From assembly GCF_947539375.1 (NCBI RefSeq), contig NZ_OX443569.1, forward strand, positions 620,001-684,000: a stretch of 64,000 nt of DNA, written 5' to 3'. Below are positions 3,021-19,745 of the stretch, in pieces. Source of the DNA: Lactobacillus isalae (GTDB lineage: Bacteria > Bacillota > Bacilli > Lactobacillales > Lactobacillaceae). A program made the translations under genes and the position numbers. Every line of letters starts with the position of its first letter. Positions within the stretch are counted from its first letter, which is position 1. The notes under the pieces are model-generated. The model was given only the letters and a program-made list of their open reading frames with translations. It did no database searches and was not told the origin of the DNA.

Positions 3021-4471
3021 TTAAGCTAATTTTTTAATCCAAGTACTCCATTCACTTGAATAATTTTTGGCTGTATTTTTGCTAATTCTAGGAGTATAAG
3101 TTTTTGAATATTGCATCCCATCGAAATGCTGCATAGCATTCATTGCACTTCCTAATGCACTAAGTTCAGAAACATTAGCAATTCTAACATTCTTTTGAGT
3201 GATGTTACTTAAATACTGCATTAAATACTTATTTTTAATCATTCCACCATCTGTGTGAATTTCGTTGTTAACTTTTGGAGAAAGCTGATGAAAAGCATGT
3301 AAAATATCATTAATTTGATAAACAAGAGAGTTTAATGTTGCTCGCACTAGTTCTTTTTTACCAGTAGTAGCTGTCATATTGACAAACGCAGCTTTCATAT
3401 CGGGAAGCCAGTAAGGAGCGCCGAGTCCAGCAAAAGCTGGAATTAAAAATGTATGATCATTTGGATTCGCAGTTAAAGCTAGATTAGCTGTTTCAGAGGG
3501 ATCTTGGATTAAATGGATCTTATCTTTTAGCCAGGTTACGCAAGCGCCAGCGTAATTGATATTACCTTCAAGAACATAGAATTTTTGCCCATTAATTGAC
3601 CAAGCAAGGGAAGTATTCAGCTGATTATTAAGATTATCAGGTAGTTGTTTACCAATATTTAGCATTACTGAAGAACCAGTTCCAAAGGTAACCTTAAAAT
3701 CACCAGTTTCAAAACAACCATGTGCAAATAAAGCAGCTTGAGAATCACCTAAAACACTAAGGATTGGGATCTTATGGGGAGTAGACCAAATAAGTCTGTC
3801 TCACCAAAGTTCGCATTTGAATCAACAATCTCTGGTAAATTTTTAGTATCAATTCCAAAGATTTCAGCTAGTTCTTGATCCCAATCACCAGTTTTAATAT
3901 TCATTAATTGAGTTCTGCAAGCGTTAGATGGTTCTGTTTTAAAAGAATGACCATTTGTTAGTTGATAAACCAGCCAAGTGTCCATTGTGCCAAGACAGAG
4001 ATCGTTATTTGCTTGTGCTTGAACTACTCTAGGTTCATTCAACAGCATCCAGCCCCATTTAGCTCCAGTAAAATAGGGAGAAAGAGCTAAACCAGTTGTG
4101 TTCTTAACCTTATCTGCTAATTCAGGATAAGAAATACGGCTAATCAATTTTTCTGCTCGATTATCTTGCCAAACAATAGTCTTGCACAATGGTTCACCGG
4201 TTTTACGAGACCAGGCAGCGGCAGATTCTCGTTGGTTGGTAATTGCCAAGGATTCTATTTGATCAGCGGTTACTTTTTTCAAAACTTGTTTAAATAAAGT
4301 AATTAGATTAGCTCGAATTTCATTTAAATCATGACTAACCCAGCCGTCCTCGTTAATGATCTGTTTGTGAGTTAGAGATGCTTTCCAGAATATTTGATTC
4401 TGATGGTCAACTAAGATGGCCTTAGTGCCTTGAGTGCTCTGGTCGATTGCTAAAACATATTTTTCAGTCAT
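3021..4471 (-). pseudogene. FGGY-family sugar kinase (apulose/xylulose-kinase-like), frameshifted
   Basis: Minus-strand frames 4471-3749 (240 aa) and about 3775-3021 join into one FGGY kinase of roughly 480 residues. The first part starts MTEKYVLAIDQSTQGTKAILVD, the FGGY N-terminal ATP/phosphate motif, and has TNQRESAAAW and TIVWQDNRA sugar-binding segments. The second resumes in another frame with VLGDSQAALFAHGCF and TFGTGSSVMLNIG, which are conserved in the second half of FGGY kinases. The shift lies in or near the CTCCCCAT run at about 3774-3780, consistent with loss of one C. It is the last gene of an operon with two transketolase subunits, 9 nt upstream. Context suggests a ketopentose substrate such as D-apulose; sequence alone does not fix the sugar. 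The frameshift could be true decay or a sequence error. Confidence 0.8.
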
Positions 4472-4480
4472 AATCAGACC

Positions 4481-5422
4481 TCATTTTTTGAGAACTTTTT
4501 TAACAGATTTTTCAATACCTTCACTATCTAAGCCGTAATAATGGAAGACTTCATCTTGTGTGCCTTGAATGGCAGGCTCATCAGGAAAGCCTAGGATCGT
4601 TAACTTAGCGTGACCAAACTTAGCAACTTCACTAGCAACAGCGCTACCGATACCGTTAATTACATCATGTTCTTCAACAGTAACAATTTGATCAAATTCT
4701 TGTGCTAATTGATCAAGCATTTCAGTATCTAGTGGTTTAATTGAAGATAAATCAACAACCTCAGCGTCAATACCGTCTTTAGCCAAGTTTTCAGCTGCTT
4801 GAAGAGTAAAGTAGAGCATTTCACCAACTGAAATTAAGCAGACGTCACGACTCTTTCGAATAACTTTAGCCTTACCGGGTGTAAAGGCAAAATCTTCATG
4901 ATAGACATTATCTAATTTGCGCTTGCCAACACGAACATAAGCTGGACGCGGCGATTTAAGTAGGTAGTTGAATAAGGCTCTAGTCTGATACTGGTCACAT
5001 GGTTGATAAACTTCAAGATTAGGAATTGCGCGAGTAATGGCAACATCATTTAAAGAATGATGGGTAGTACCAAGCCAAGTGTAGGAGTTACCACCAGAAA
5101 TACCGATTAACTTAACGTTAGTTTGATTAAATGCAACATCAACTTTGACTTGCTCGATTGAACGCATTGCTAAAAAGGCAGCAGGAGAGAAGACAAAGGG
5201 ATGCTTTCCTGCATGCGCCATTCCAGCAGCAACAGTTACAGCGTTTTGCTCGGCAATACCCATTTCTAAGGTACGGTCTGGATGGGCATTAGTGAAATTA
5301 ACTAAACCAGCAGATCCACGTGAGTCACAAGTTACAACTAAGAGATCTGGATCAGTTTTAGTTGCTTTATCTAAAGTGTTTGCAATTACGGCATTAGCAG
5401 TTAATTTTTCCTCATTAGTCAT
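4481..5422 (-). CDS. Transketolase, C-terminal subunit (AptB-like)
   Basis: A 313-aa protein with the pyrimidine-binding and C-terminal domains of a two-polypeptide transketolase. It has the catalytic glutamate motif MGIAEQNAV (E near residue 58), the ISGGNSYTWLGTTHHSLND loop, and a C-terminal transketolase domain (residues about 190-310). It overlaps the N-terminal subunit gene by 8 nt and precedes the FGGY kinase, so the three are one operon. Split transketolases are used in several side pathways. One is apulose-4-phosphate transketolase (AptA/AptB), which transfers a C2 unit to glyceraldehyde 3-phosphate, giving xylulose 5-phosphate and dihydroxyacetone phosphate. The apulose role is inferred from neighbouring GH140-like, isomerase and kinase genes. 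A general transketolase remains possible. Confidence 0.85.
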   Translation of the reverse strand: MTNEEKLTANAVIANTLDKATKTDPDLLVVTCDSRGSAGLVNFTNAHPDRTLEMGIAEQNAVTVAAGMAHAGKHPFVFSPAAFLAMRSIEQVKVDVAFNQTNVKLIGISGGNSYTWLGTTHHSLNDVAITRAIPNLEVYQPCDQYQTRALFNYLLKSPRPAYVRVGKRKLDNVYHEDFAFTPGKAKVIRKSRDVCLISVGEMLYFTLQAAENLAKDGIDAEVVDLSSIKPLDTEMLDQLAQEFDQIVTVEEHDVINGIGSAVASEVAKFGHAKLTILGFPDEPAIQGTQDEVFHYYGLDSEGIEKSVKKVLKK

Positions 5423-6248
5423 TGTTTAATCCCTCCAATTGTGCGTCTAATTCGCGTAGACCTTCTTGATATTCAGCTTCACTTGGAATTTTGTGGTGCC
5501 AATCAGCACGGTTTTCTGCAACCGTAATTCCTTTACCTTTAACAGTGTTTGCAATAATTACACGAGGTTTACCTGGATTGTTTGGTTTATTTAAAATATT
5601 TACTAAGGCATCGATATCATTGCCATTTACTTCAATTGTGTCCCAGCCGAAAGCTTGATACTTATTGCTAATTGGATTTGAACGCATGACTGAATCGGTC
5701 GTACCCGTAATTTGTAGATCATTGTGGTCAACAATCGCGGTTAAGTTATCTAAACTATAATTGCTTGCTGCCATTGCTGCTTCCCAAACAGATCCTTCTG
5801 CTTGCTCACCATCTCCCATTAGGACAAAAGTTCGCTTTTTTGAATGATCCATCTTAGTAGCTAAAGCAACGCCAACTCCTAATCCAAGACCGTGACCGAG
5901 TGAACCAGTGTGAAATTCCATTCCTCTAACGTCAGTTGTTGGGTGTCCAATATATGGACTGTTAAAAGTTGAGTAACGTTTATCTAGATCCTCTTGATCA
6001 ATGTATCCTTTATCAGCTAGAATTTCATACCAAATTTCGACTGCATGTCCTTTACTTTGAATGTAAGTATCGGCATTTTGATCCTCAAAAGTTTCTGGAG
6101 TTTGATTAAGTACATCGTAGTAAAGTGCAACTAAAATATCGGCACATGATAAGTCAGAGCCGGTGTGACCATTTTTATGATTATAAATTAATTGCCAGGT
6201 TCTTTTTCTTAATTGAACGGCTTTTTTCTTTAAATCTAAACTATTCAT
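5415..6248 (-). CDS. Transketolase, N-terminal (TPP-binding) subunit (AptA-like)
   Basis: A 277-aa thiamine-diphosphate-binding subunit. The motif LMGDGEQAEGSVWEAA followed by DHND is the GDG...N thiamine/Mg binding signature, and HTGSLGHGLGLGVG is the conserved transketolase loop. A start at ATG 6248 is preferred because GAGGTG lies 6 nt upstream; a GTG at 6257 is in frame but would lie within that RBS. It is the first gene of the minus-strand operon (N-subunit, C-subunit, kinase) and is divergent from a LacI regulator. The shared upstream region holds a cre-like site and the first of three 20-bp operator-like repeats. Likely works as a heteromer with the next gene in pentose or branched-pentose catabolism. 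Confidence 0.87.
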   Translation of the reverse strand: MNSLDLKKKAVQLRKRTWQLIYNHKNGHTGSDLSCADILVALYYDVLNQTPETFEDQNADTYIQSKGHAVEIWYEILADKGYIDQEDLDKRYSTFNSPYIGHPTTDVRGMEFHTGSLGHGLGLGVGVALATKMDHSKKRTFVLMGDGEQAEGSVWEAAMAASNYSLDNLTAIVDHNDLQITGTTDSVMRSNPISNKYQAFGWDTIEVNGNDIDALVNILNKPNNPGKPRVIIANTVKGKGITVAENRADWHHKIPSEAEYQEGLRELDAQLEGLNND

Positions 6249-6275
6249 CAAAAACACCTCAATATATTTTTATCT

Positions 6276-6289
6276 TGTAAATGCTTACA
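6276..6289. promoter_or_regulatory. cre-like site upstream of the transketolase operon
   Basis: TGTAAATGCTTACA matches the CcpA consensus TGWAANCGNTNWCA at all but one fixed position (T for C in the centre). It sits 28 nt before the transketolase start, where CcpA binding would repress. Confidence 0.6.
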
Positions 6290-6334
6290 AATTGAGAGTA
6301 TCATGTTTGTAGTTAACGTAGCTTATTAATTTAG

Positions 6335-6354
6335 TTAGTTTAGCTTAAATTAGT
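6335..6354 (+). promoter_or_regulatory. Operator-like repeat O1 (candidate site of the adjacent LacI regulator)
   Basis: TTAGTTTAGCTTAAATTAGT is found again with few changes at 7403-7422 (17 of 20 identical) and on the minus strand at 10381-10400 (18 of 20). The central AAGCTT/TAGCTTAA is imperfectly palindromic. The location between divergent lacI and transketolase genes fits an operator controlling both. Confidence 0.6.
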
Positions 6355-6381
6355 AAATTTGATTAAGAAAGAAAAATAAAT

Positions 6382-7401
6382 ATGAAACTAAAAATGAGTG
6401 ATATTGCAAAGGAAGCAGGTATTTCAAAAGCAGCTGTATCTTTTGCATTGAACGGAAAACCTGGTGTAAGTGAAGAAACACGGAAACATATTTTTAAGGT
6501 AATAGAAGAAATGGGGTATGAACCACTTAGAAAACATAAAAAGGGTGGCGTGAGAAAACTAACTAGTATTAGTTTAGTAATTATCAAAGATACGGCAGGG
6601 ATGATGAGCCGTAGTTATGCTAGCTTGCCATTTTTTGATTCGTTAGTATCGCATCTGTCTGATAATGTTGGTGGTTTTGGTGGTGAAGTTCAGATTATTA
6701 CTTTGAATATTCGTAATTTGAAAAATGATCTTGAAGAAAATGATGCACTCAAAAAGAGTAAAGCCGCAATAGTTCTTGCGACAGATTTAAATAAAAAACA
6801 GGTACTCTTTCTGAATTCAAAGATTAAAAATGCAATTTTTATTGATAATTATTTTGAGGATGTTGATGCGGATTTTGTTTCAATTGATAATTTTCAAGGT
6901 GGATATAATGCTGGTAAATTCATCGTTGATAGCGGTTATACCAAAATTGGCTATGTAGCTTCTAACCGGATAATTACTAATTTCTTAAAACGAAGAGAAG
7001 GATTTAGAGCTGCCTTAAAAGAAAACAATATTGAAGTTCCTAGCGAGTTTGTTTTTAGTTTGAACCCGATTGAGTTAAAAGGGACTCTGCCTGAGTTTTT
7101 CTATTCTGGTCACGAATATCCACATGCTATCTTTTGTGAAGATGATTATATGGCTTTGCGGTTAGTTAAGGAATTAACCAGAATCGGAATTAAAATTCCT
7201 GAAAAAGTAGCAATTATGGGATTTGACGATATTTTTGAAGACACGATGATTAATCCAGAACTAACAACAATTCATGTGCCAATTGAACAGATTGTAAGAC
7301 AGGCTATTAATCAATTGCAAGAAAAAGTCAGCAATTCAAATTGGCTTAGTCAGAAGAGTTTTGTATCGACTAAATTAATTGTTAGAGAATCTCTGAAATA
7401 G
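6382..7401 (+). CDS. LacI-family transcriptional regulator of the glycoside island
   Basis: A 339-aa LacI/GalR repressor. The N-terminal helix-turn-helix (residues 4-50) reads MSDIAKEAGISKAAVSFALN, then the hinge helix and a periplasmic-binding-protein-like sugar domain (about 62-335) ending in IMGFDD...TTIHVP. It is divergent from the transketolase-kinase operon and lies directly before the isomerase gene. The same 20-bp repeat occurs upstream of it, just after it, and before the PTS operon, so this protein is the obvious candidate to bind all three. Its effector is unknown; a pathway sugar such as apiose or apulose is an inference. RBS is weak (AAGAAAG). Confidence 0.9.
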   Translation: MKLKMSDIAKEAGISKAAVSFALNGKPGVSEETRKHIFKVIEEMGYEPLRKHKKGGVRKLTSISLVIIKDTAGMMSRSYASLPFFDSLVSHLSDNVGGFGGEVQIITLNIRNLKNDLEENDALKKSKAAIVLATDLNKKQVLFLNSKIKNAIFIDNYFEDVDADFVSIDNFQGGYNAGKFIVDSGYTKIGYVASNRIITNFLKRREGFRAALKENNIEVPSEFVFSLNPIELKGTLPEFFYSGHEYPHAIFCEDDYMALRLVKELTRIGIKIPEKVAIMGFDDIFEDTMINPELTTIHVPIEQIVRQAINQLQEKVSNSNWLSQKSFVSTKLIVRESLK

Positions 7402-7402
7402 T

Positions 7403-7422
7403 TTAGTTAAGCTTAATTAAGT
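7403..7422 (+). promoter_or_regulatory. Operator-like repeat O2, upstream of the isomerase gene
   Basis: TTAGTTAAGCTTAATTAAGT starts 2 nt after the regulator's stop codon. It has 17 of 20 bases in common with O1 and is nearly a perfect palindrome around AAGCTT. Confidence 0.6.
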
Positions 7423-7466
7423 AAAATAGCTATTGCCGAGTTGCTAAATTCTAGTTATCTTTTAGT

Positions 7467-7480
7467 TGTAAGCGAATACA
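7467..7480 (+). promoter_or_regulatory. cre-like site before the isomerase gene
   Basis: TGTAAGCGAATACA matches the cre consensus at all fixed positions but one (A for T after the central CG). It lies 23 nt upstream of the isomerase start. Confidence 0.6.
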
Positions 7481-7502
7481 AAAAGTCTAAGAGGTAATAA
7501 TT

Positions 7503-8957
7503 ATGACTGATAAAAATGTTTTAAAACAAATTAAACTTGGCTTTGCGCCAACTAGAAGAAATATCTTTTCAGCAACTGCCGCAATTGAGTTTGCTAATAA
7601 GACGCGTGAAAAGTTGGACGAATTAGGCGTCAATTACGTTGACATCAAAGATGTAAATGATGATGGACTTCTTTATGATGATGAAGGATTAGAAAAAATT
7701 ACTGAAAAGTTCAAAGAGGCAAAGATTGATGGTCTATTTATTGCTAATGAGAACTTCGGTACTGAATATGAAGTTGCCAGATTAGCAGCTAAACTAAACG
7801 TTCCAGTATTACTTTGGGGCCCAAGAGATGAAGCTCCAGCTCCTGATGGTTCGAGAAGACGTGATACACAATGCGGTTTGTTTGCAATTGGCAAAGTTTT
7901 GCTTCACTTCAATGTTCCATTTACTTATATTAGAAATAGCGATATTGATGATCCGTCATTTAGTCGTGGGGTAATCGATTTTATCAAGGTATGTAATGTA
8001 GTTAAGACCTTTAAACATACTAGGATTTTACAAATCGGAACTCGTCCATTTGACTTTTGGTCAGTAATTGTCAATGAAGGTGAATTGCTTGAAAAGTTTG
8101 GTATCCAACTTTCTCCAATTCCTCTGGGCGAATTAACTTCCTATATGTATAAGTTAATTGATGAAAAAGATCCACGAATTGAAGAAACAAAAGATGTTTA
8201 CCGTAAATGGGCCGATATTAAGATTAAGGATGAAGACTTCACCAAAGTGGCTGCTTTGAAGTTAGCAATGCAAGATAAAATGAATGAATATGGCTGCAAT
8301 GCTGGCACAATTCAATGCTGGACTGAATTACAGCGTGAAATTGGAATTTTGCCTTATGCGTCTGAAGCACTTCTTCAAACTGAGGGAATGCCAGTAACTT
8401 GTGAAACTGATATTAATGGTGCGATTTCAGAAATCTTAGCAGAAAGTGCAACTTTAGGCGATGAGAGAGCATTATTTGCGGATGTTAACTGTCGTCATCC
8501 TGAAAACGAAAATGGCGAATTGCTCCAGCACTTGGGTACTTTTGCTTTTCAAACTGCTAAGAATCGTCCCGTTTTACCGCCTTCACATTTTGTCTTTGAT
8601 TATCCTGGTTCAGCCGCTTTTGAAGTTAAAGATGGAACTTATACTTTAGTTAGATTTGATGGTGATCATGGTAAGTATTCAATGTTAATTGGGAATGCTA
8701 AAACTTGTGATGGTCCATATGAACAAGGGACCTATGCTTGGTTTGAGTTTAAAGACTTGAATAGATTTGAAGCTAAATATGTTTATGGTCCATATATTCA
8801 CCATATGGCAGGTGTCCGTGCAGACGTTGTACCAATTTTGGCTGAAGCATGTAAGTACATTAATGTAGATCCAGATTATTATGATCCAATTAAGAACAAG
8901 GTCGCAGCTTATTGGTATGGCGATTTAGATACTATTTTAGATGATAATCAAAAGTAG
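7503..8957 (+). CDS. L-fucose/L-arabinose isomerase-family protein (candidate apiose isomerase)
   Basis: A 484-aa protein of the fucose/arabinose isomerase superfamily. It has an N-terminal Rossmann-like part (about 10-170: VARLAAKLNVPVLLWGPRD), a middle domain with QIGTRPFDFW, and a C-terminal metal region with CWTELQRE, CETDINGAIS and YIHHMAG. These contain the acidic and histidine residues expected for a Mn-dependent aldose-ketose isomerase. It is shorter than FucI (about 590 aa) and close to AraA in length. It lies between a LacI regulator and a GH140-like hydrolase, with a kinase and transketolase on the other side. That context suggests conversion of a released aldopentose, possibly D-apiose, to its ketose. 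The known apiose isomerase of the transketolase pathway is, as I recall, from another fold, so this would be a non-orthologous replacement. Substrate unproven. Confidence 0.75.
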   Translation: MTDKNVLKQIKLGFAPTRRNIFSATAAIEFANKTREKLDELGVNYVDIKDVNDDGLLYDDEGLEKITEKFKEAKIDGLFIANENFGTEYEVARLAAKLNVPVLLWGPRDEAPAPDGSRRRDTQCGLFAIGKVLLHFNVPFTYIRNSDIDDPSFSRGVIDFIKVCNVVKTFKHTRILQIGTRPFDFWSVIVNEGELLEKFGIQLSPIPLGELTSYMYKLIDEKDPRIEETKDVYRKWADIKIKDEDFTKVAALKLAMQDKMNEYGCNAGTIQCWTELQREIGILPYASEALLQTEGMPVTCETDINGAISEILAESATLGDERALFADVNCRHPENENGELLQHLGTFAFQTAKNRPVLPPSHFVFDYPGSAAFEVKDGTYTLVRFDGDHGKYSMLIGNAKTCDGPYEQGTYAWFEFKDLNRFEAKYVYGPYIHHMAGVRADVVPILAEACKYINVDPDYYDPIKNKVAAYWYGDLDTILDDNQK

Positions 8958-8966
8958 TGATATCTC

Positions 8967-8980
8967 TGTTTGCGCTTACA
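8967..8980 (+). promoter_or_regulatory. cre-like site overlapping the hydrolase promoter
   Basis: TGTTTGCGCTTACA matches cre with two mismatches at the W/A positions. It lies just upstream of an extended -10 (TGATAAAAT, 8985-8993) that would start transcription near the RAT at 9000. Confidence 0.5.
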
Positions 8981-8999
8981 GAAATGATAAAATAAGTTA

Positions 9000-9074
9000 G
9001 GATTGTGACATTAAGTTGGCAAGACCGGATAAGCCTAAAGAATTCATTTGGTTTATTAGTGTCTTGCTTTTTTT
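9000..9074 (+). promoter_or_regulatory. RAT antiterminator overlapping a terminator, before the GH140-like gene
   Basis: The 27-nt segment 9000-9026 begins GGATTGTGAC and ends GGCAAGACC, the hallmark ends of a ribonucleic antiterminator for BglG/LicT proteins. Its 3' part (GGCAAGAC, 9018-9025) pairs with GTCTTGC at 9061-9067 followed by eight T, a terminator. The two structures are mutually exclusive. The near-identical element at 10461 lies before the licT gene, so one antiterminator probably controls both. Confidence 0.85.
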
Positions 9075-9089
9075 ATAGGAGAAAACAAT

Positions 9090-10385
9090 ATGCTGACAAC
9101 AAAAGGAAAATACTTATATAAAGATGGCAAAAAATTCTTTTATTTAGCAGATACTTGCTGGGGTGCATTTACAAGTATTGAAATGCCAGATTGGCGTTAC
9201 TATCTTGATACTAGAAAAGCAGAAGGATTTAACACAATTCAAATTAATATTTTAAGACAGTGGGATTCAAGCAAACCTTTAGCAGGAAGAGAACCATTTG
9301 CAATTAAAGAGCATGAAGATGGATCATATGAATATGACTTCACTAAAATAAATGAAAGTTATTTTGATAATGCTGTTAAGATGCTTGAAGAAATGAGAAA
9401 AAGAGACATGGTGCCGGCTTTAGTTTTACTTTGGAGTAACTTTATTCCAGATAATTGGATTGCAAGTTATCATGCCGCTAAAAATAATCTAATGTCCTTT
9501 GATCAAATCAGACCATATGTGACTTATGTAGTAAATAAGTTTAAAGAATTTCATCCTATTTGGTTTGTTAGTGGGGATGTTGGCTTTACCGATAATGAAA
9601 AACAAGACCGCGAAAAGGCAATTAAATATTATCGAGAAGTCTTAAATACAGCTAAAGAAATTGATCCAGAAGGTATCTACACTTTTCATATTAATGGTGA
9701 AAGTCACGACTTGCCAGAAGAGTTTGTTAAGCAAGTTAGCTTTTATAGTTACCAATCTGGTCATGGTTACGCTGGTCAAAATACTGCCTATACTATTCCT
9801 TTGGCTTTACGTAAAAAGCAAGATTACACTGGTCCAATTATTGACACTGAGCTATGTTATGAGGGCTTAACTCAAATGCATTCGCCTGAACCTAAAAGAT
9901 ACAGTGCTTTTGATGTGCGAAAAGCAGCTTGGCGAGCTGTTTTGTCCGGTGCTGATGCAGGGTTAGGTTATGGCAGTTTTGGAATTTGGCCATGGAAAGA
10001 TACTAGTCGTCCCGAACAAGAATTAGAACAGAACTTTAATGTTCAGCTTGTACCATATGACTGGCGTACTTGTTTAACATTTCGTGGCGCAAAAGATTTA
10101 GGATTTTTGAAGAGTATTTTAGATGAATATGCTCTAAATGGAGTGAATCCGTTAAATGAAGGTGAAGACGATGCTATTAGAGCAGCTGAAAGTGAGAATT
10201 ATGTACTAATTTATTTACCCACGGCTGGTACTTTAGACTTTAGTAAGTTTGGATTTAATATCAATGAGTGTAAAGTAATTGACTTACAGAAAAGAACTAT
10301 TTTAGAAGGAAAAGTTGAAAATAATACCTTTCAGATGCTGCCAATATTAGAAGATGAGGTAGTAATTATAAGTAAGAAGCACTAA
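9090..10385 (+). CDS. DUF4038 / GH140-like glycoside hydrolase (apiosidase-like), intracellular
   Basis: A 431-aa DUF4038-type (beta/alpha)8 hydrolase related to GH140. It starts with the usual 'DGKKFFYLADTCWGAF' strand. It carries candidate catalytic acids at D163 (WFVSGD) and E254 or E258 (DTELCYEG), the positions where the family has its nucleophile and acid/base. There is no signal peptide, so the substrate must be imported. GH140's characterised member releases D-apiose from rhamnogalacturonan II side chains; an intracellular enzyme would act on small apiosyl glycosides. It is behind its own RAT/terminator switch and cre-like site and 170 nt before a LicT-PTS-esterase operon. RBS TAGGAG is 7 nt from the ATG. 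Family placement is fairly sure; the apiosidase activity is inference. Confidence 0.75.
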   Translation: MLTTKGKYLYKDGKKFFYLADTCWGAFTSIEMPDWRYYLDTRKAEGFNTIQINILRQWDSSKPLAGREPFAIKEHEDGSYEYDFTKINESYFDNAVKMLEEMRKRDMVPALVLLWSNFIPDNWIASYHAAKNNLMSFDQIRPYVTYVVNKFKEFHPIWFVSGDVGFTDNEKQDREKAIKYYREVLNTAKEIDPEGIYTFHINGESHDLPEEFVKQVSFYSYQSGHGYAGQNTAYTIPLALRKKQDYTGPIIDTELCYEGLTQMHSPEPKRYSAFDVRKAAWRAVLSGADAGLGYGSFGIWPWKDTSRPEQELEQNFNVQLVPYDWRTCLTFRGAKDLGFLKSILDEYALNGVNPLNEGEDDAIRAAESENYVLIYLPTAGTLDFSKFGFNINECKVIDLQKRTILEGKVENNTFQMLPILEDEVVIISKKH

Positions 10386-10400
10386 ATTAAACTAAACTAA
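10381..10400 (-). promoter_or_regulatory. Operator-like repeat O3, upstream of the licT-PTS operon
   Basis: Read on the minus strand this is TTAGTTTAGTTTAATTTAGT, 18 of 20 identical to O1. It overlaps the stop codon of the hydrolase gene and ends 11 nt before the -35 box of the next promoter. Confidence 0.6.
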
Positions 10401-10411
10401 TTTGAATGCCA

Positions 10412-10440
10412 TTGCAATCGCTTACAACGAGTGCTATATT
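10412..10440 (+). promoter_or_regulatory. Promoter with overlapping cre site for the licT-PTS operon
   Basis: TTGCAA (10412-10417), a 17-bp spacer and TATATT (10435-10440) with an extended TG form a good sigma-A promoter. TGCAATCGCTTACA (10413-10426) matches cre except one position and covers the -35, so CcpA would block it. Transcription should begin shortly before the RAT at 10461. Confidence 0.65.
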
Positions 10441-10460
10441 TATAATTGAAATAAGAAATC

Positions 10461-10537
10461 GGATTGTTACATTGAGTTGGCAAGACCAAATAAATCTAAA
10501 TTGTTTTAATTAGGTTTATTGTGTCTTGCCATTTTTT
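10461..10537 (+). promoter_or_regulatory. RAT antiterminator/terminator switch before licT
   Basis: 10461-10487 begins GGATTGTTAC and ends GGCAAGACC, differing from the element at 9000 at only two of 27 bases. GGCAAGAC (10479-10486) pairs with GTCTTGCC (10523-10530), followed by ATTTTTT. This is the standard LicT/BglG arrangement, making the licT-PTS operon autoregulated. Confidence 0.9.
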
Positions 10538-10554
10538 ATTGAAAGGTAAATTTT

Positions 10555-11397
10555 ATGCTTCTAATTAAGAGAGTTCTTAACAATAACGCAGTTGTTGCGA
10601 CAGATAAACATAAGCAGACATTGGTCGCTTTAGGAAACGGGATTGCTTTTCATAAAAAGTCAGGAGAAATCATTTCTGAAGATAAAGTGGAAAAAATATT
10701 TTATCCTCAAAATGAAAAAGATACTAACTCAATGAGCGAAATGCTAGCAAGCATTGATCCAAAGTATATTGAACTATCCGATCAAATTATTTCGGAGACA
10801 ATTGCAAGCTCAGGCAAAAAGTTGAGTGATGATATTTATTTATCATTACCAGATCATTTGCAGTTTGCGGTTGAAAGATTAAAAAAGGGGATGCCGATTC
10901 AGAACCGTTTAACTATTGAAACGATGCAAACATATCCGGATGAATTTCAATTAGGAAAACGTGTCTTACGTTATTTAGAAAAAACAGAAAACCTTAAATT
11001 TCCAGAAGATGAAGCTACCAATATAGCAATGCACTTGATTACTGCTGAAGAAGGGAATTCGCTTGAACATACTGCAGGAACAATTGAACTAATTAATCGA
11101 TTTTTAGAAATCATTAGCGAAATGCTAAAGATGGAAATTAATTCGAAATCAGTTGCTTATTATCGTTTAGTAACGCATTTAAAGTTCTTTGCTCAGAGAA
11201 TTTCTAAAAAACAGACGCAAGAAGCTAATGTAGATCCAGAACTTTATAACATGGTTATTCATCGCTACCATAAAGAATATTTAATTTCTCAACGTATTGC
11301 GGGAATTGTAATGCGAAAATTCAATTACAAAGTATCGCAAGATGAAATTATGTATTTAACCATTCATATTCATCATATTGCAGTAGCAGATAGGTAG
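10555..11397 (+). CDS. licT: BglG/LicT-family transcriptional antiterminator
   Basis: A 280-aa antiterminator. The RNA-binding CAT domain (residues 1-56) begins LLIKRVLNNNAVVATDKHKQ and includes LGNGIAFHKKSGE. Two PTS regulation domains follow: PRD1 (about 70-170) with LPDHLQFAVERLKKG and NIAMHLITAEEG, and PRD2 (about 175-280) with HIHHIAV. The histidines of LPDH, MHL and HIHH are the usual phosphorylation sites. It lies behind a RAT/terminator and 5 nt before the PTS permease. Without substrate the permease phosphorylates PRD1 and keeps the protein off; HPr activates PRD2. It is the likely reader of the RATs at 9000 and 10461. Confidence 0.95.
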   Translation: MLLIKRVLNNNAVVATDKHKQTLVALGNGIAFHKKSGEIISEDKVEKIFYPQNEKDTNSMSEMLASIDPKYIELSDQIISETIASSGKKLSDDIYLSLPDHLQFAVERLKKGMPIQNRLTIETMQTYPDEFQLGKRVLRYLEKTENLKFPEDEATNIAMHLITAEEGNSLEHTAGTIELINRFLEIISEMLKMEINSKSVAYYRLVTHLKFFAQRISKKQTQEANVDPELYNMVIHRYHKEYLISQRIAGIVMRKFNYKVSQDEIMYLTIHIHHIAVADR

Positions 11398-11402
11398 TAA
11401 AA

Positions 11403-13595
11403 ATGAATAGCAATTATCAAAAGGTAGCAAAGAAAATCTTAGTAGCTGTTGGCGGAGCTGAAAACATTGACGAAGTTTTCAATTGTATTGCTCGATTAAG
11501 ATTTTATTTAAAAGATTCAAATAAAATAAATTATCAAGAATTAGAGTTAATTCCAGAGGTTTCAGAAAGCAAGTTTGAAGACGGACAACTACAAGTCCTT
11601 TTAGGACAAAATGTTGAAAAATATTACCAAGCATTAATTAACTTGATGAAACAAGCTAATGCAAGTAGAGGAGTAAAGAAAATGTCTAAGGCTGATGAAA
11701 AAAATAAAAAACTAGCTGAACAAATAGTAAAGCTAGTTGGTGGAAAGGATAACGTAATTAGTTTAGTTCACTGTGTAACTAGATTGCGTTTTAAGTTAAA
11801 GGATGAAAAGAAAGCTGATGATGACGCAATCAAACAATTAAAAGGCGTCATGGGAGTTGCACATGCAGGCGGTCAATATCAGGTTATTATTGGAAATAAT
11901 GTGGCTGATGTTTACGATCAAGTGATGCCACTTTTGGGCTTGAGTAGTGAAGAAGAGGTAACTACTGATGACGAAAAAGATGGAAATATTTTTAGTAGAC
12001 TAGTGGCTTTAATTTCTTCATTATTCATGCCATTGTTAGGTGTCATGACCGGTGCTGGTATGTTGAAAGGACTCTTGGTTTTACTTAATGTTTTAGGTTG
12101 GGTAAAGCAAGGTACTGGTACTTACATGATTTGGAATGCGGCAGCTGATTCCTTGTTTTACTTTTTACCAGTTTTATTAGGCTTTTCTGCTGCTAAAACA
12201 TTTCATGTTAATAAATATTTAGGTGCTGTTACTGGTGGAGCATTAGTCTATCCAACAATGGTTGCAGCAGCTACAGCTCACAAAGCAATTACTTTCTTTG
12301 GACTTCCAGTCAATTTGATGAATTATAGTCAAACCATGTTACCAATTGTATTTGCAATTTGGGGAATGTCATGGTTTGAAAAAGGTACTAAGAAAGTTGT
12401 ACCAAAGGTGGTACAAAACTTATTTGTTCCTCTTTTAGACTTAATGGTAATTGTTCCTTTAACTTACTTAATTGTTGGACCAGTTATGCAAACCCTTAGT
12501 CAATGGCTATCAAGTGCAAGTCTTTGGCTATATGGATTAGTTCCTGTAGTAGCAGGATTTGTAATCGGTGGCATTTGGCAAGCAGCCGTTATTGTAGGTT
12601 TGCACTGGGCATTTATTCCGGTATTAATGAATAATTTAATGACAAATCATTTTGACCCAATTAACGGTATTATGTACTGTACCTTGTTTGGACAAGTTGG
12701 AGCAGCTTTAGCAATGGGACTTAAAGCAAAAGATAAAAACTTTAAAGAAATTGCTATCCCTGCAGCTGTGTCTGGTTTCTTTGGTGTTACAGAACCAATT
12801 ATTTATGGTGTAACCTTACCACATAAAAAATCATTTGTATTTGCTTCAATTGGATCAGCCTTTGGCGGTGCAATCGCAGCCGCCTTTCATGCAGGTATGT
12901 ATACAATGCCTGGTGGTGGTATTTTCGGTATTCCAGCATTTATTAATCCAAAAGGAATTGATGCATCATTTATCGCATTTGTAATCTCATTAATTGTAGC
13001 TTTTGCATTAGCCTTTATTTTGACATTTATTTGGGGCGATAAAGTTGTACCAGCTACTCCAAAGAAAAAATTCGATGTTAAAAAAGTTGAATTTAAAGAT
13101 CAAGGAATTGCTTCTCCAATTCAAGGTACTGCTGTTGAATTAAAGAATGTAGATGATCCAGTATTTTCAGCTGGAACAATTGGTAAAGGATTGGCTGTAC
13201 AACCAAATAATAATGAAGTACGTGCTCCATTTGATGGAGAAGTAATTTCAGTATTTCCAACTAAGCATGCTATTGGTTTGAAGTCAGAAAATGGTGTTGA
13301 ATTACTGATTCATTTAGGTATTAATACTGTTAACTTAAAGGGTAAGTATTTTGACGCCAAAGTGGCTGCTGGTCAAAAAGTTAAACAAGGTGATTTACTT
13401 GAGACCTTTGACGTAGATCAAATTAAATCCGCTGGGTACGACACAGTTGTTCCAATTATCGTTACTAATACCAATAATTTTGATGATATTATTGTTGAAA
13501 AGAAAGATGGCGATTCAGTCAAATTTGGCGATCAAATATTGATGGCTACAGTTGACCAAGAAGTAGAAATTCCTGTTAATGCAACTCAAGCATAG
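11403..13595 (+). CDS. PTS beta-glucoside-type EII permease with an extra N-terminal IIB domain (IIB-IIB-IIC-IIA)
   Basis: A 730-aa membrane permease. Residues 1-85 form an extra IIB-like domain with C28 in FNCIARLRF. Residues 94-180 form the normal IIB domain with active C124 in VHCVTRLRF. The IIC membrane domain spans about 200-550 (FGVTEPIIYGVTLP is the conserved substrate loop). The IIA domain (about 565-725) has phospho-histidine H637 in LLIHLGINTV. Typical BglP/BglF proteins are 620-640 aa. An internal ATG at 11682 (residue 94) has a near-ideal GAGGAG 8 nt upstream and would give exactly that length. The permease should import and phosphorylate a glucoside. Neighbouring hydrolases suggest a plant disaccharide or aryl glycoside with apiose or rhamnose. 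It is followed by an esterase with 12 nt spacing. Confidence 0.92.
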   Translation: MNSNYQKVAKKILVAVGGAENIDEVFNCIARLRFYLKDSNKINYQELELIPEVSESKFEDGQLQVLLGQNVEKYYQALINLMKQANASRGVKKMSKADEKNKKLAEQIVKLVGGKDNVISLVHCVTRLRFKLKDEKKADDDAIKQLKGVMGVAHAGGQYQVIIGNNVADVYDQVMPLLGLSSEEEVTTDDEKDGNIFSRLVALISSLFMPLLGVMTGAGMLKGLLVLLNVLGWVKQGTGTYMIWNAAADSLFYFLPVLLGFSAAKTFHVNKYLGAVTGGALVYPTMVAAATAHKAITFFGLPVNLMNYSQTMLPIVFAIWGMSWFEKGTKKVVPKVVQNLFVPLLDLMVIVPLTYLIVGPVMQTLSQWLSSASLWLYGLVPVVAGFVIGGIWQAAVIVGLHWAFIPVLMNNLMTNHFDPINGIMYCTLFGQVGAALAMGLKAKDKNFKEIAIPAAVSGFFGVTEPIIYGVTLPHKKSFVFASIGSAFGGAIAAAFHAGMYTMPGGGIFGIPAFINPKGIDASFIAFVISLIVAFALAFILTFIWGDKVVPATPKKKFDVKKVEFKDQGIASPIQGTAVELKNVDDPVFSAGTIGKGLAVQPNNNEVRAPFDGEVISVFPTKHAIGLKSENGVELLIHLGINTVNLKGKYFDAKVAAGQKVKQGDLLETFDVDQIKSAGYDTVVPIIVTNTNNFDDIIVEKKDGDSVKFGDQILMATVDQEVEIPVNATQA
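11668..11684 (+). promoter_or_regulatory. Internal RBS and start codon inside the PTS gene
   Basis: GAGGAG (11668-11673) followed by 8 nt and ATG (11682), in frame with the permease. Initiation here would give a 637-aa IIB-IIC-IIA protein without the extra IIB domain. Confidence 0.5.
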
Positions 13596-13607
13596 GAGGG
13601 TAGATCT

Positions 13608-14516
13608 ATGAAATATTTTAAGAAAAATATTGGAGAAAATGGAGCAGAAGCGACTTTTTATTTGCAAGAGCCAAATAAAGAAATTGATATTAAGCGCAAA
13701 TCTCCAGTAATGATCGTTGTTCCGGGTGGAGCATATATGTGGACGTCCTGGCGCGAAGAAGAACCTATTGCTCTTGAATTTTTAGGAAAAGGATTTTCAT
13801 GTATTGTGGCCCAATATGCAACTGAAGGCTTAGGCTTTTATGATGGTAAACATGATTATAGTAAAGAACCTGTCTCTGCTTTCCCTAATCCTTTAGTAGA
13901 TCTGGCCAAGATTGTAGCGTATGTGAGAGAGAATGCAGAAGAGTGGAACTTAGACAGTAACAGTATAAATGTAATTGGATTTTCGGCTGGTGGTAATTTA
14001 ACTGCTCAATTAGGAGTTTACTGGAATACTGATTGGCTAGAAAAGTTAGTCGGAAAATCAAGAAAAGAATATCAACCAAATTCAATTTGTCTATCCTATG
14101 GTGCTCCACACATGGCACAATCGCCTGAAAAAGATCGCTACAAACAAACTAAGAAAATGGCTGGTCCTAGTATGATTGACTATGCAACTTTAGGAAATGA
14201 TCAATCAGAAGAGCGAGTACGATTAGTTAATATGATTGATACAGTATCTAAGGATGTACCACCAACTTTTATCTGGCACACCATGGAAGATCCTTATGTT
14301 CCAGTAGCAAGTGCTCTTAATTTTGCTAGCCAATTAGAAGAGAAGATGGTACCTTTTGAACTTCATATTTATCAAAAGGGAAAGCATGGCTTGGCTTTGG
14401 CAGATTTAAGAACTGATAGTAAAAAAGATCGAAGTCAAAGTAATGAACAAGCTGCAACTTGGAAGAGATTATACTTAGGCTGGTTAAAAGAAAATAAGCT
14501 GATTAATTTATTTTAG
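13608..14516 (+). CDS. Alpha/beta-hydrolase esterase (BD-FAE / acetyl-esterase type)
   Basis: A 302-aa intracellular alpha/beta hydrolase. It has an oxyanion-hole segment PGGAYMW (39-45) with the HGG-like PGG, nucleophile S126 in GFSAGG, acid D in HTMEDPYVP and base H in GKHGLAL. This order fits esterases of the Abhydrolase_3/BD-FAE group that remove acetyl or phenolic acyl groups from carbohydrates. It is the last gene of the licT-PTS operon (12 nt after the permease; RBS GGAGGG) and is followed by a terminator. In this context it could deacylate imported glycosides before hydrolysis; many flavonoid apiosyl-glucosides occur as malonyl or acetyl esters. The substrate is inference. Confidence 0.8.
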   Translation: MKYFKKNIGENGAEATFYLQEPNKEIDIKRKSPVMIVVPGGAYMWTSWREEEPIALEFLGKGFSCIVAQYATEGLGFYDGKHDYSKEPVSAFPNPLVDLAKIVAYVRENAEEWNLDSNSINVIGFSAGGNLTAQLGVYWNTDWLEKLVGKSRKEYQPNSICLSYGAPHMAQSPEKDRYKQTKKMAGPSMIDYATLGNDQSEERVRLVNMIDTVSKDVPPTFIWHTMEDPYVPVASALNFASQLEEKMVPFELHIYQKGKHGLALADLRTDSKKDRSQSNEQAATWKRLYLGWLKENKLINLF

Positions 14517-14550
14517 AAAAAGGTTTGGCAAGACGAGCCAAACCTTTTTT
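14517..14550 (+). terminator. Terminator of the licT-PTS-esterase operon
   Basis: GGTTTGGC (14522-14529) pairs with GCCAAACC (14537-14544), flanked by A5 and T6, a strong intrinsic terminator. The rhamnosidase gene starts 18 nt later, so part of its expression may depend on read-through or on an unseen promoter. Confidence 0.85.
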
Positions 14551-14567
14551 ATTAGGAGAAGATAAAA

Positions 14568-17354
14568 ATGAAGATTACTAATATTCTAATTAATCAAATG
14601 GTCGAGCCCTTAGGATTTAAGCTGGATAATTTTCAAGTAACTTTTGCAGTTGAAGATCTAAATATAAGTGATTTTTCAAAAGTATATAAAAAAATCAAAA
14701 TATTTGAGGCTGAAAGTAATAAAGTTATTTATTTAGTTGATTATGAACAGTATGAAAATAACCAATTTAATGTAAAAGTGAACTTGAAAGCTCGTACTAA
14801 GTATATTGTCGAAATTAGTATTAAAGCCCTGAATCAAGAAGTAAAAGCAAGTAGCTTCTTTGAAACAGGAAAGTTAGATGAGCCGTATCTAGGAAAGTGG
14901 ATAGCTAGTCCTGATAAAACCATCTCTAATACTCTGTTTTGTAAAAAGTTCCAAAGAAAAAATGTAGGAATAAAAAGAGCTAGATTGTATGCGAGTGGTT
15001 TAGGATTATATGAAGCATATTTAAATCATCAAAAGATTGGAAATGAGTATCTCTCCCCAGGTTTTACTAACTATCAGGATTGGATTCAAGTTCAAACTTA
15101 TGATGTAACTTCTTTAATGCAGGAAAATTTAAAATTTGAATTACTCTTTTCAGTAGGTGATGGATGGTATAAAGGACGATTAGGTTTTGATGGTGGAAAG
15201 ACTAACATATTTGGCGATCAACAAATGATTATTGCTGAATTACATCTTGACTATGAAGATGGGAGTAAAGAAGTAATTAAAACCGATTCTAGTTGGCGTA
15301 CAGCAGAAGGAAAAGTTACTAAAGCTGAGATTTATTATGGTGAAGATTTTGATGAAAATAAGAAAATAGATTCGTGGCAAGCAGCTATTGAATTAGAAAA
15401 AAGTACGGATCAATTAACAGATAGACTTAGTTTACCGATTATTATTCATGAAAAATTACCAGTTAAAAAGATAATTAAAACTCCCAAAAATGAAGCTGTT
15501 TTAGATTTTGGGCAAAATCATGCTGGCTGGCCTAGTTTCTTTAATACAGCTCCTAAAGGGAAAAAAGTTACACTAACTATGGGCGAAATTCTGCAAGATG
15601 GTAACTTCTATAAAGATAATTTGCGTAAAGCAAGAGCTTCGTTTACCTATATTTCAAACGGAGAGGAAAAATGGATTCGACCTCATTTTACTTATTTTGG
15701 CTTTAGATATGTAAAAGTGGAGGGTATAGATAATGTAAAGAAAGAAAACTTTGAGTCTTTAGTTCTTTATTCTAATTTATTGCAGACTGGCAAGATTGAG
15801 ACTAATAATGAACAAGTAAATAAACTATTTAATAATGTCTTATGGGGACAAAAGAGTAATTTCTTTGATATTCCAACAGATTGTCCTCAACGTGATGAAA
15901 GATTAGGTTGGACTGGAGATGCAGAGATTTTTGCAAAAACGGCATCTTTTAATATGAATTCGTATGAATTTTTTAAGAAATATGCTTATGATATGAAACT
16001 AGCGCAAGAAGAAAATAATGGCAAGCTTCCAATAGTTGTTCCAGATATTGGACTTAAATCATCTGGGATGGCTATTTGGAGTGATGCAGCGACTATCATT
16101 CCTTGGTTAATTTATAAGTTTTATGGCAATAAGGATATTCTTAAACAAAACTACTTTCAAATGAAGTCGTGGGTAAATTGGATAGGTGAAAATACTACTA
16201 CAAAAGACATGTGGACTGGAGGGATGCAATTAGGTGATTGGCTTGCACTGGATAATGGAGATAGGCCTAATGGGAGAACCGATTCGAGTTTTTTAGCTAC
16301 ACTCTATTATTTGATTTCAACGCAGATTTTAGCAAATAGCGCTCAAGTATTAGAACAGACACAAGATCATGATTATTATCAGGATTTGACAGAAAGAATT
16401 AAAAGCAAATTATGTAATAAATATGTGACCATGGATGGAAAAGTTGCAATTAATACTCAAACAGCTTTAGCGTTAGCATTAAAGTTTAATTTAGTTTTGG
16501 GCAATCAGAAAAAACAAGTTACTAATGATTTGGTTGAGTTAATTAAGCTAGATAATAACCATTTATCAACTGGATTTGTTGGGACACCATACTTATTATC
16601 TGCCTTATCTGATAATGGAAAACATGAAAAGGCTGTAGATTTGTTTTTAAATGATAATTTTCCTAGTTGGCTTTATGAAGTTAAAATGGGTGCAACTACG
16701 ATGTGGGAGAGATGGAACTCAGTTTTGCCAGATGGCAGGATGAATCCAAAAGGTATGAATTCTCTTAATCACTATAGCTTTGGTGCGGTTATGTCTTGGA
16801 TGTATGAATATGTAGTTGGATTTAGAAAATTTGATCCTGGTTTTAGAAATATTACTTTTGCTCCACTATTTGATTATCGGTTAAGAAGTGTAAAAGCATC
16901 GCTAAAAACTTCATATGGAAAAATTAGTGTGAATTATAAACTTGAAATAAATAAAGCACATAAAATTAATTTAGAAATAGATATTCCATTTGGAATGAAT
17001 GTAAAAATGATTTTACCTCGAAATAAGAACAGATTAATAAATGTAAATGGTCAAGAAATGAAGGAAAACATAATATTAAAAGGAGGAGAATATCATATTA
17101 GCTACATTCCAACCCAGTCTTATGTGAAAGGGTATGAATTATCTACTTCGGTTTCTATGATTCTAGAGAATCGAGGCTTAGTTCATCAAATAGATAGTAT
17201 TGATGGAAAAATTTTAGAGAAGGTAAAACATTCTGGAAATATAAGAGACATGTTTATTGATAAATCACTAATGGACTTGCTGGAATATGAACATGTATCA
17301 AAAGAAAGCACAGAAAAGATAGAAAAAATTTTAAAGCAAGAAACTTTATATTAA
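14568..17354 (+). CDS. GH78 alpha-L-rhamnosidase, intracellular
   Basis: A 928-aa bacterial alpha-L-rhamnosidase. N-terminal beta domains (about 1-400, including GDGWYKGRLGF and NHAGWP) precede the (alpha/alpha)6 catalytic domain. That domain carries DCPQRDERLGWTGDAE, containing the general-acid region, and GATTMWERWNS with the second catalytic glutamate. A C-terminal beta domain follows. There is no signal peptide, so it should act on imported rhamnosides such as rutinose-type disaccharides or their phosphates. The last about 100 residues beyond the usual end (from about 830) are charged and unassigned. RBS TAGGAGAAG is well placed. No rhamnose isomerase, kinase or aldolase is present in the window, so released rhamnose may not be used here. 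Confidence 0.9.
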   Translation: MKITNILINQMVEPLGFKLDNFQVTFAVEDLNISDFSKVYKKIKIFEAESNKVIYLVDYEQYENNQFNVKVNLKARTKYIVEISIKALNQEVKASSFFETGKLDEPYLGKWIASPDKTISNTLFCKKFQRKNVGIKRARLYASGLGLYEAYLNHQKIGNEYLSPGFTNYQDWIQVQTYDVTSLMQENLKFELLFSVGDGWYKGRLGFDGGKTNIFGDQQMIIAELHLDYEDGSKEVIKTDSSWRTAEGKVTKAEIYYGEDFDENKKIDSWQAAIELEKSTDQLTDRLSLPIIIHEKLPVKKIIKTPKNEAVLDFGQNHAGWPSFFNTAPKGKKVTLTMGEILQDGNFYKDNLRKARASFTYISNGEEKWIRPHFTYFGFRYVKVEGIDNVKKENFESLVLYSNLLQTGKIETNNEQVNKLFNNVLWGQKSNFFDIPTDCPQRDERLGWTGDAEIFAKTASFNMNSYEFFKKYAYDMKLAQEENNGKLPIVVPDIGLKSSGMAIWSDAATIIPWLIYKFYGNKDILKQNYFQMKSWVNWIGENTTTKDMWTGGMQLGDWLALDNGDRPNGRTDSSFLATLYYLISTQILANSAQVLEQTQDHDYYQDLTERIKSKLCNKYVTMDGKVAINTQTALALALKFNLVLGNQKKQVTNDLVELIKLDNNHLSTGFVGTPYLLSALSDNGKHEKAVDLFLNDNFPSWLYEVKMGATTMWERWNSVLPDGRMNPKGMNSLNHYSFGAVMSWMYEYVVGFRKFDPGFRNITFAPLFDYRLRSVKASLKTSYGKISVNYKLEINKAHKINLEIDIPFGMNVKMILPRNKNRLINVNGQEMKENIILKGGEYHISYIPTQSYVKGYELSTSVSMILENRGLVHQIDSIDGKILEKVKHSGNIRDMFIDKSLMDLLEYEHVSKESTEKIEKILKQETLY

Positions 17355-17357
17355 GAA

Positions 17358-17389
17358 ATAAGACCTGGCAAATTGCCAGGTCTTATTTT
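17358..17389. terminator. Bidirectional terminator between the rhamnosidase and the second LacI gene
   Basis: AAGACCTGGCA and TGCCAGGTCTT form an 11-bp stem with a short AAT loop between convergent genes, with T-rich flanks on both strands. The minus-strand gene's stop codon lies inside the right arm region. Confidence 0.85.
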
Positions 17390-18365: not shown

Positions 18366-18379
18366 TGTAACAGTTTACA
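18366..18379. promoter_or_regulatory. LacI-type operator near the regulator start
   Basis: TGTAACAGTTTACA, an imperfect palindrome 20 nt upstream of the minus-strand LacI gene. It is related to the perfect palindrome at 18446 and is a candidate for autorepression. Confidence 0.6.
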
Positions 18380-18445: not shown

Positions 18446-18459
18446 TGTAACCGGTTACA
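18446..18459. promoter_or_regulatory. Perfect LacI-type operator before the MFS gene
   Basis: TGTAACCGGTTACA is a perfect 14-bp palindrome with the central CCGG common in LacI-family operators. It is 40 nt upstream of the MFS start and overlaps the likely promoter region. CcpA could also bind it, since it resembles cre. Confidence 0.75.
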
Positions 18460-19726: not shown

Positions 19727-19745
19727 TATAGTGAGGAGAATAAAA

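Follow-up and report, generated by a model that had tools for sequence, protein, structure and literature searches.

The 64,000-nucleotide stretch of Lactobacillus isalae DNA analysed in this work (the window, bases 620001–684000 of one 2.12-Mb contig, NZ_OX443569.1) carries an island that probably encodes D-apiose catabolism by the transketolase-type pathway, with two modules for uptake. The pathway would be of a known kind and the uptake and isomerase branch new, the function itself being a prediction. Three minus-strand genes, for the two halves (N and C) of a transketolase and for an FGGY kinase, face plus-strand genes for a LacI-family regulator (LacI1), a fucose-isomerase-family enzyme, a GH140-like (PF13204) hydrolase, LicT, a beta-glucoside phosphotransferase system (PTS) protein, an esterase and a GH78 rhamnosidase (Table 1). 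A first-pass annotation, made from the letters alone, had named the hydrolase, isomerase, kinase, split transketolase, PTS, esterase and GH78 genes, and family searches found all of them near the positions it gave; its bounds for the island, 3021–17354, were too small, as a module made of a second LacI regulator (LacI2), a major facilitator superfamily (MFS) transporter and a DUF5060/PF13204 protein extends the locus to 21278. Its central idea, apiose release by GH140 followed by isomerase, FGGY kinase and split transketolase after PTS uptake, is upheld by conserved neighbourhoods and by homology to the E. coli apt cluster, but the cargo of the PTS is a matter of inference.

The reactions proposed for the island are those of the known apiose pathway, whose transketolase type (ApsI, AplK, AptA/AptB; PWY-8089) was reportedly described by Carter et al. 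in 2018, a study cited in PMC13001218. The fucose-isomerase-family enzyme would convert D-apiose to D-apulose, which the GlpK-type FGGY kinase would phosphorylate to apulose 4-phosphate; from this and glyceraldehyde 3-phosphate the two-subunit transketolase would then form xylulose 5-phosphate and dihydroxyacetone phosphate. Phosphoketolase, for which the genome has one match, would act on xylulose 5-phosphate to yield acetyl phosphate and also glyceraldehyde 3-phosphate, giving the co-substrate back. Upstream of these steps, module 1 (the LicT-controlled PTS with the intracellular GH140-like hydrolase, the esterase and GH78) would import glucose-core glycosides, phosphorylating the glucose, and cytosolic enzymes would remove the apiosyl, rhamnosyl and acyl groups; GH1 enzymes encoded elsewhere would set glucose 6-phosphate free. 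Module 2 (MFS transporter and DUF5060/PF13204 hydrolase) would handle the import and cleavage of other apiosides. All substrates, including that of the isomerase, the acylation of the glycosides and their uptake as apiosyl-glucosides, as well as the PTS cargo, the order of steps and the regulation, are what we infer from these genes. The genome has no RhaA match, so that rhamnose as a carbon source, which the first-pass annotation had allowed for, is unsupported and released rhamnose would lack a RhaA route.

The linkage of the core genes was followed in two sets of loci, one of 18 fetched loci from 17 other isomerase-positive genomes in a sample of 295 Lactobacillales genomes, the other of the best 80 of at least 586 named-genome matches to the isomerase profile A1, in which neighbours were called by tblastn with score thresholds in flanks of up to 10 kb. 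Among the 80 loci the transketolase N-half, its C-half and the kinase accompany the isomerase in 79, 77 and 73, respectively; every transketolase-half miss lies at a contig end, as do six of the seven kinase misses, the exception being L082. The neighbourhood comparison that the first-pass annotation had called for thus finds the core linkage conserved. The same holds for the 18-locus set (N-half 18/18, one cut; C-half 17/18; kinase 17/18, one cut), where the missing C-half and kinase fall at the contig end of L026. Accessory genes are less constant: a GH140-like gene lies inside the stretch in 13 of the 18 loci and a PTS above 300 bits in 11, with weaker PTS matches in L028 and L030, while the 80 loci hold 20 GH140-like genes, 13 DUF5060, 13 PTS, 9 esterase and 6 GH78 genes. 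The locus is patchy, since the isomerase is present in only 18 of the 295 genomes and in 2 of 13 within the window's own genus. Fifteen of the 295 genomes, spanning seven genera, score above the PF13204 cut-off, and all are isomerase-positive (15/18 versus 0/277 isomerase-negative genomes; Fisher p ~1e-22, uncorrected for relatedness); the isomerase-negative genome G123 has an Apiosidase match under the cut-off. The grouping of the isomerase with Apiosidase is therefore far from chance. In Monoglobus pectinilyticus the core runs directly into a DUF5060 gene. At a Lactobacillus jensenii locus (L054:11461-12807) a single open reading frame (ORF) matches GH140 residues 1–304, with a short PTS match next and then the esterase, which on sequence reads as a decayed island, as after a deletion.

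The two transketolase subunits are 45% (AptA) and 36% (AptB) identical to the E. coli SE15 proteins, and the N-half is the sole strong Transketolase_N match in the genome, the other match (27 bits) being in a 597-amino-acid frame that looks DXS-like. A tree was made of 21 cluster rows (the window, 18 of the 80 loci, Listeria and Monoglobus), 6 AptA-like sequences and 11 non-cluster split transketolases, E. coli TktA being left out of its final version. The cluster rows group together in a single clade (99/92) close to AptA, and a clade of cluster plus AptA was not rejected (approximately unbiased (AU) test, p 0.20). The island protein is nearer to AptA and to other split transketolases than to fused TktA; a fused housekeeping transketolase, the identity that the first-pass annotation had held would speak against it, was rejected. 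Its counterpart for the kinase, an ordinary xylulose kinase, is ruled out by subfamily assignment, as the island kinases are of the GlpK type, like AplK itself, and not of the xylulokinase type, but by BLAST they are closer to GlpK than to AplK. In the kinase tree, from which six rows were finally removed (four distant FGGY kinases, a Rhizobium kinase and the genome's own L001), a clade of cluster plus AplK was not rejected either (AU p 0.22), with poor resolution and long branches. Taken together, the two phylogenies are consistent with the apiose reading, not decisive for it. In the two locus sets combined (98 loci, not all different, at least six records being common to both), 87 have a full-length kinase near the isomerase, three have one cut at the contig end, and none is seen in eight, of which seven end within 2.3 kb of the isomerase and L082 has a full flank.

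The isomerase has a Pfam Fucose_iso_C score of 24.8 bits, under the gathering cut-off of 29.3. In a plasmid collection, Klebsiella, Rahnella and Sodalis have apt clusters in which a gene of the L-fucose/L-arabinose isomerase family lies between those for the transketolase C-half and the kinase; from this place it would encode ApsI. The window isomerase is 25–26% identical to this enterobacterial protein and matches it over the full length by hhalign (E 1e-35), a comparison that gives a probability of 35 to AraA and of 0.2 to E. coli FucI. Residues E301, D327, H433 and H434 are invariant in alignments A1 (15 sequences) and A5 (8 sequences), and E301, D327 and the His pair would fit a metal site. 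Searches of the PDB with the window isomerase profile and with the Klebsiella isomerase gave no match. Lactobacilli are not alone in having a fucose-isomerase-type enzyme, given this homologue and the at least 586 loci of the window's own branch. In PMC13001218, aplK, aptA and aptB of the E. coli SE15 apt cluster are named by locus tag and D-apiose is stated to support growth of E. coli strains with that cluster. The E. coli cluster has no isomerase gene and holds two short-chain dehydrogenase/reductase (SDR) genes. A Rhizobium plasmid (L170) resembles it, with an AptAB-like pair and a kinase, no isomerase, SDR genes and tpiA; such a cluster may use an oxidation-reduction route instead of an isomerase.

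The GH140-like hydrolase matches solved apiosidases (8t9w Apiosidase and 5msy/3kzs; E 2e-12 to 7e-10), and so has the kind of relatives whose absence the first-pass annotation had held would speak against it. Its D163 and E254, invariant in 17 sequences, align with the presumed catalytic pair of these structures, which we take to be D187 and E284 in BT1012. The likeness to GH140 apiosidases thus covers the sequence match and both presumed catalytic acids, but similarity is low, and the island hydrolase has no visible signal peptide and is tied to a PTS. Judged by eye at the N-termini, no signal-peptide-like start was seen in the GH140-like, GH78, esterase and DUF5060 proteins. Where the GH140-like hydrolase has SGD and DTELCYE, the motifs of the DUF5060 protein are ANE (residue 261) and DDECRYE (347); translation of the DUF5060 protein more likely begins at the ATG at 19746 than at the GTG. 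In two Enterococcus loci (L062:14647-16125 and L065:14645-16111) a PF07632 nucleoside-hydrolase-like protein directly follows the kinase and no GH140-like or DUF5060 match is in view; it is possible that this protein is an alternative furanosidase for apiosides. PF07632 is above its cut-off in 10 genomes of the order sample, of which three are isomerase-positive (2/7 above 200 bits), always on a different contig from the isomerase, so that its role as a substitute apiosidase was kept only as a lead.

In uptake the island differs from known systems. The transketolase-type D-apiose clusters seen in this work share with it the split transketolase and the FGGY kinase, and those of Klebsiella, Rahnella and Sodalis also a fucose-isomerase-family enzyme. 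These reference clusters import by an ATP-binding cassette (ABC) transporter, whereas in the island a beta-glucoside PTS and an MFS transporter stand with apparently intracellular apiosidase-like hydrolases, and the island proteins are only 25–45% identical to theirs. With LicT/BglG-controlled bgl operons it shares LicT, a terminator overlapped by a ribonucleic antiterminator (RAT) sequence and a IIABC permease, but apiosidase, esterase and GH78 genes stand in place of a 6-phospho-beta-glucosidase. At its N-terminus the PTS protein carries an extra EIIB-like domain, which has a Cys motif of its own (NCIARLRF at residue 27, besides HCVTRLRF at 123), and many relatives align only from about residue 85–103. 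If the PTS phosphorylates glucose O6, cargo with O2-linked apiosyl (apiin type) is favoured over 1,6-linked acuminosides. A wider proposal, which we put somewhat below an even chance, is that PTS-coupled apiose use occurs in lactobacilli, Listeria and other Lactobacillales, apiosyl-glucosides entering as 6-phospho-glucosides and being cut intracellularly by a phospho-apiosidase branch of GH140 before an apiose isomerase from one branch of the fucose/arabinose isomerase superfamily acts. Outside the Lactobacillales set, 14 of 51 loci have a substrate-binding protein scoring 192–258 bits to that of the E. coli apiose cluster versus 97–122 to RbsB, and in 13 of these 14 the permease is 48–56% identical to the apiose-cluster permease versus 36–39% to RbsC.

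LacI/cre-type palindromes (cre, catabolite-responsive element) like TGTAANCGNTTACA lie in the gap between aptAB and lacI1 and precede the isomerase gene, the hydrolase gene (a weaker site) and licT. One scan gave 14 strand-wise matches at 9 places versus 4.8 expected, a number reached in 0 of 100 shuffles; a second gave seven in the first 24 kb, compared with about 1 per 21 kb of random sequence. Among 12 relatives, L042 and L046 each have three similarly placed sites and the others one, two or none, with no match in L049 and L051. The sequence at 10461–10537 was read as RAT-like from the RAT consensus; the RAT/terminator fold has a z-score of −1.9, and 8 of 200 shuffles are equally stable. 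Between the convergent GH78 and LacI2 genes, a perfect 16-nucleotide inverted repeat at 17356–17388 is likely a two-way terminator.

Table 1. Genes and regulatory sequences of the island (window coordinates)
Feature	Position	Strand	Basis or remark
FGGY kinase C-terminal part (apulose kinase-like, frameshifted gene)	3021..3665	-	FGGY_C 104.6 bits; 33% identity to E. coli AplK
FGGY kinase N-terminal part (apulose kinase-like, same frameshifted gene)	3749..4471	-	FGGY_N 180.2 bits; 36% identity to E. coli AplK; GlpK-type subfamily
Transketolase C-half, AptB-like	4481..5422	-	36% identity to E. coli AptB, 2.7e-66
Transketolase N-half, AptA-like	5415..6257	-	45% identity to E. coli AptA, 3.7e-81
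LacI/cre-type palindrome, divergent promoter region	6276..6289	.	
LacI-family regulator 1	6382..7401	+	Pfam LacI, Peripla_BP_3
LacI/cre-type palindrome before isomerase	7467..7480	.	
Fucose-isomerase-family enzyme, proposed D-apiose isomerase	7503..8957	+	Conserved neighbourhood; homology to enterobacterial apt-cluster isomerase
Weaker LacI/cre-type site before apiosidase gene	8967..8980	.	10/12 positions; counterpart not found in L042
GH140-like apiosidase (PF13204), predicted	9090..10385	+	274.6 bits vs cut-off 26.5; solved apiosidases matched
LacI/cre-type palindrome before licT-PTS	10413..10426	.	
LicT-type RAT-like sequence overlapping intrinsic terminator	10461..10537	+	Arms 10478-10499, 10510-10531 and T run
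LicT/BglG antiterminator	10555..11397	+	CAT_RBD, PRD; two PRD stretches
Beta-glucoside PTS EIIB-EIIB-EIIC-EIIA	11403..13595	+	TIGR01995 819.9 bits vs cut-off 614.7; two EIIB stretches
Alpha/beta hydrolase esterase	13608..14516	+	BD-FAE 91 bits; lp_1002 arylesterase model 184 bits, under cut-off 300
GH78 alpha-L-rhamnosidase	14568..17354	+	Bac_rhamnosid6H 400 bits
LacI-family regulator 2	17383..18345	-	
Perfect palindrome before MFS-DUF5060 operon	18446..18459	.	Second site 18366-18379
MFS transporter	18500..19726	+	MFS_1 97.4 bits
DUF5060-Apiosidase-like-DUF5605 protein, candidate second apiosidase	19731..21278	+	PF13204 55.4 bits

A close parallel is in Listeria monocytogenes (L168:4004-13086), where the isomerase-family protein, two transketolase parts, a glycerol-kinase-like kinase, a bgl PTS and a DUF4038 protein follow each other in one tight run, with a divergent LacI; the island has these genes too. 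By gene order this operon is probably lmo1031–lmo1036, its PTS-DUF4038 part being lmo1035-1036. PMC2996996 lists lmo1031 and lmo1036 as hypothetical, lmo1032 and lmo1033 as transketolase and lmo1035 as PTS, giving all five operon number 166, and PMC8079631 terms lmo1036 a beta-glucosidase and reports that lmo1035-1036 mRNA is lowered by RliI overexpression. LicT, esterase and GH78 were not found beside the Listeria operon, in contrast with the island, and the consulted passages of these two papers give it no apiose function. A search of open-licence papers by titles and abstract openings turned up no account of apiose breakdown in either Listeria or Lactobacillus.

Several observations weigh against the apiose reading. 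The window's kinase, whose break the first-pass annotation had missed, is present as two ORFs with a one-base gap in the alignment to two relatives; being frameshifted, it may leave the pathway blocked in this strain, or the base call may be wrong. Of 97 FGGY ORFs in the 98 loci, among them some unrelated kinases and no fewer than four housekeeping GlpK, 94 have E. coli GlpK as best BLAST match and one AplK; the cluster kinases themselves do not form one clade (12% of bootstrap trees). No exclusive clade with AplK was seen in the kinase tree, nor one with AptA in the transketolase tree, where the non-cluster L155 and L156 fall among or beside the cluster rows. PF13204 was found in 11 of 17 isomerase-positive genomes picked from the 80 loci and in none of the other six, so the hydrolase is not universal, and of the 51 loci outside the Lactobacillales set one has a GH140-like gene and six have DUF5060 in the fetched flanks, counts made by tblastn with the window proteins, which distant homologues can escape. 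A 6-phospho-beta-glucosidase was not found in the island, ten GH1 loci lying elsewhere in the genome. The palindromes fit the cre consensus as well as a LacI operator and need not be LacI1 sites. Beside five Lactobacillales clusters stand Rbs-type ABC genes that resemble ribose systems more closely; as a PfkB kinase stands beside them in L045 and L047 (the two tested), they were discarded as apiose transporters, being probably for ribose at least there. Finally, the literature consulted describes no assay of any enzyme in this isomerase branch.

These points could mean that the core serves another sugar, a branched or four- to five-carbon aldose, with hydrolases that have drifted in specificity and a resemblance to apt that is general. 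The identity of only about 26% to the apt-cluster isomerase, the many core loci outside Lactobacillales with no PF13204 nearby and the missing exclusive clades with AptA or AplK all fit such a view, but every sampled Lactobacillales genome above the PF13204 cut-off holds the core isomerase, and apiose-type ABC transporter genes occur in 14 core loci, which leaves it unlikely but not negligible. The best NCBIfam model for the isomerase, sulfoquinovose isomerase SftI (96.6 bits), raises a different candidate, a sulfo-transketolase (sulfo-TK) pathway in which the isomerase would make 6-deoxy-6-sulfofructose and the split transketolase would act on it. Sulfo-TK pathways also use a split transketolase, but a kinase is not needed there. 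The SftI score is far under its cut-off of 700, a kinase is conserved in 73 of the 80 loci, and the scanned island proteins gave no sulfoquinovosidase or sulfo-sugar family beyond that weak score; sulfoquinovose was rejected on the SftI score and the conserved kinase, and we regard it as very remote.

The hydrolase and PTS genes could also be an ordinary beta-glucoside or rhamnoside PTS operon lying by chance beside an unrelated pentose cluster. LicT, RAT and a bgl PTS are the classic beta-glucoside set, GH78 and esterase are missing in the congener G009, and the PTS is found in just 13 of the 80 core loci. This is nevertheless improbable given the single tight gene run of Listeria, the PTS and GH140-like genes that recur, differently ordered, next to the core of other families, and the similar palindromes ahead of the units. 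In conclusion, a D-apiose locus with two uptake modules is the reading that we consider probable.

This reading offers a testable function for a widely conserved gene set that annotations call isomerase family, transketolase, glycerol kinase or DUF4038, the Listeria operon (probably lmo1031-1036) among them. Several of the lactobacilli in which the locus was found, such as L. helsingborgensis and L. melliventris, are bee symbionts. If the reading is true, PTS and MFS uptake would be added to an apiose pathway whose reference clusters here use an ABC transporter, and lactobacilli would be linked to apiosylated plant compounds such as apiin.

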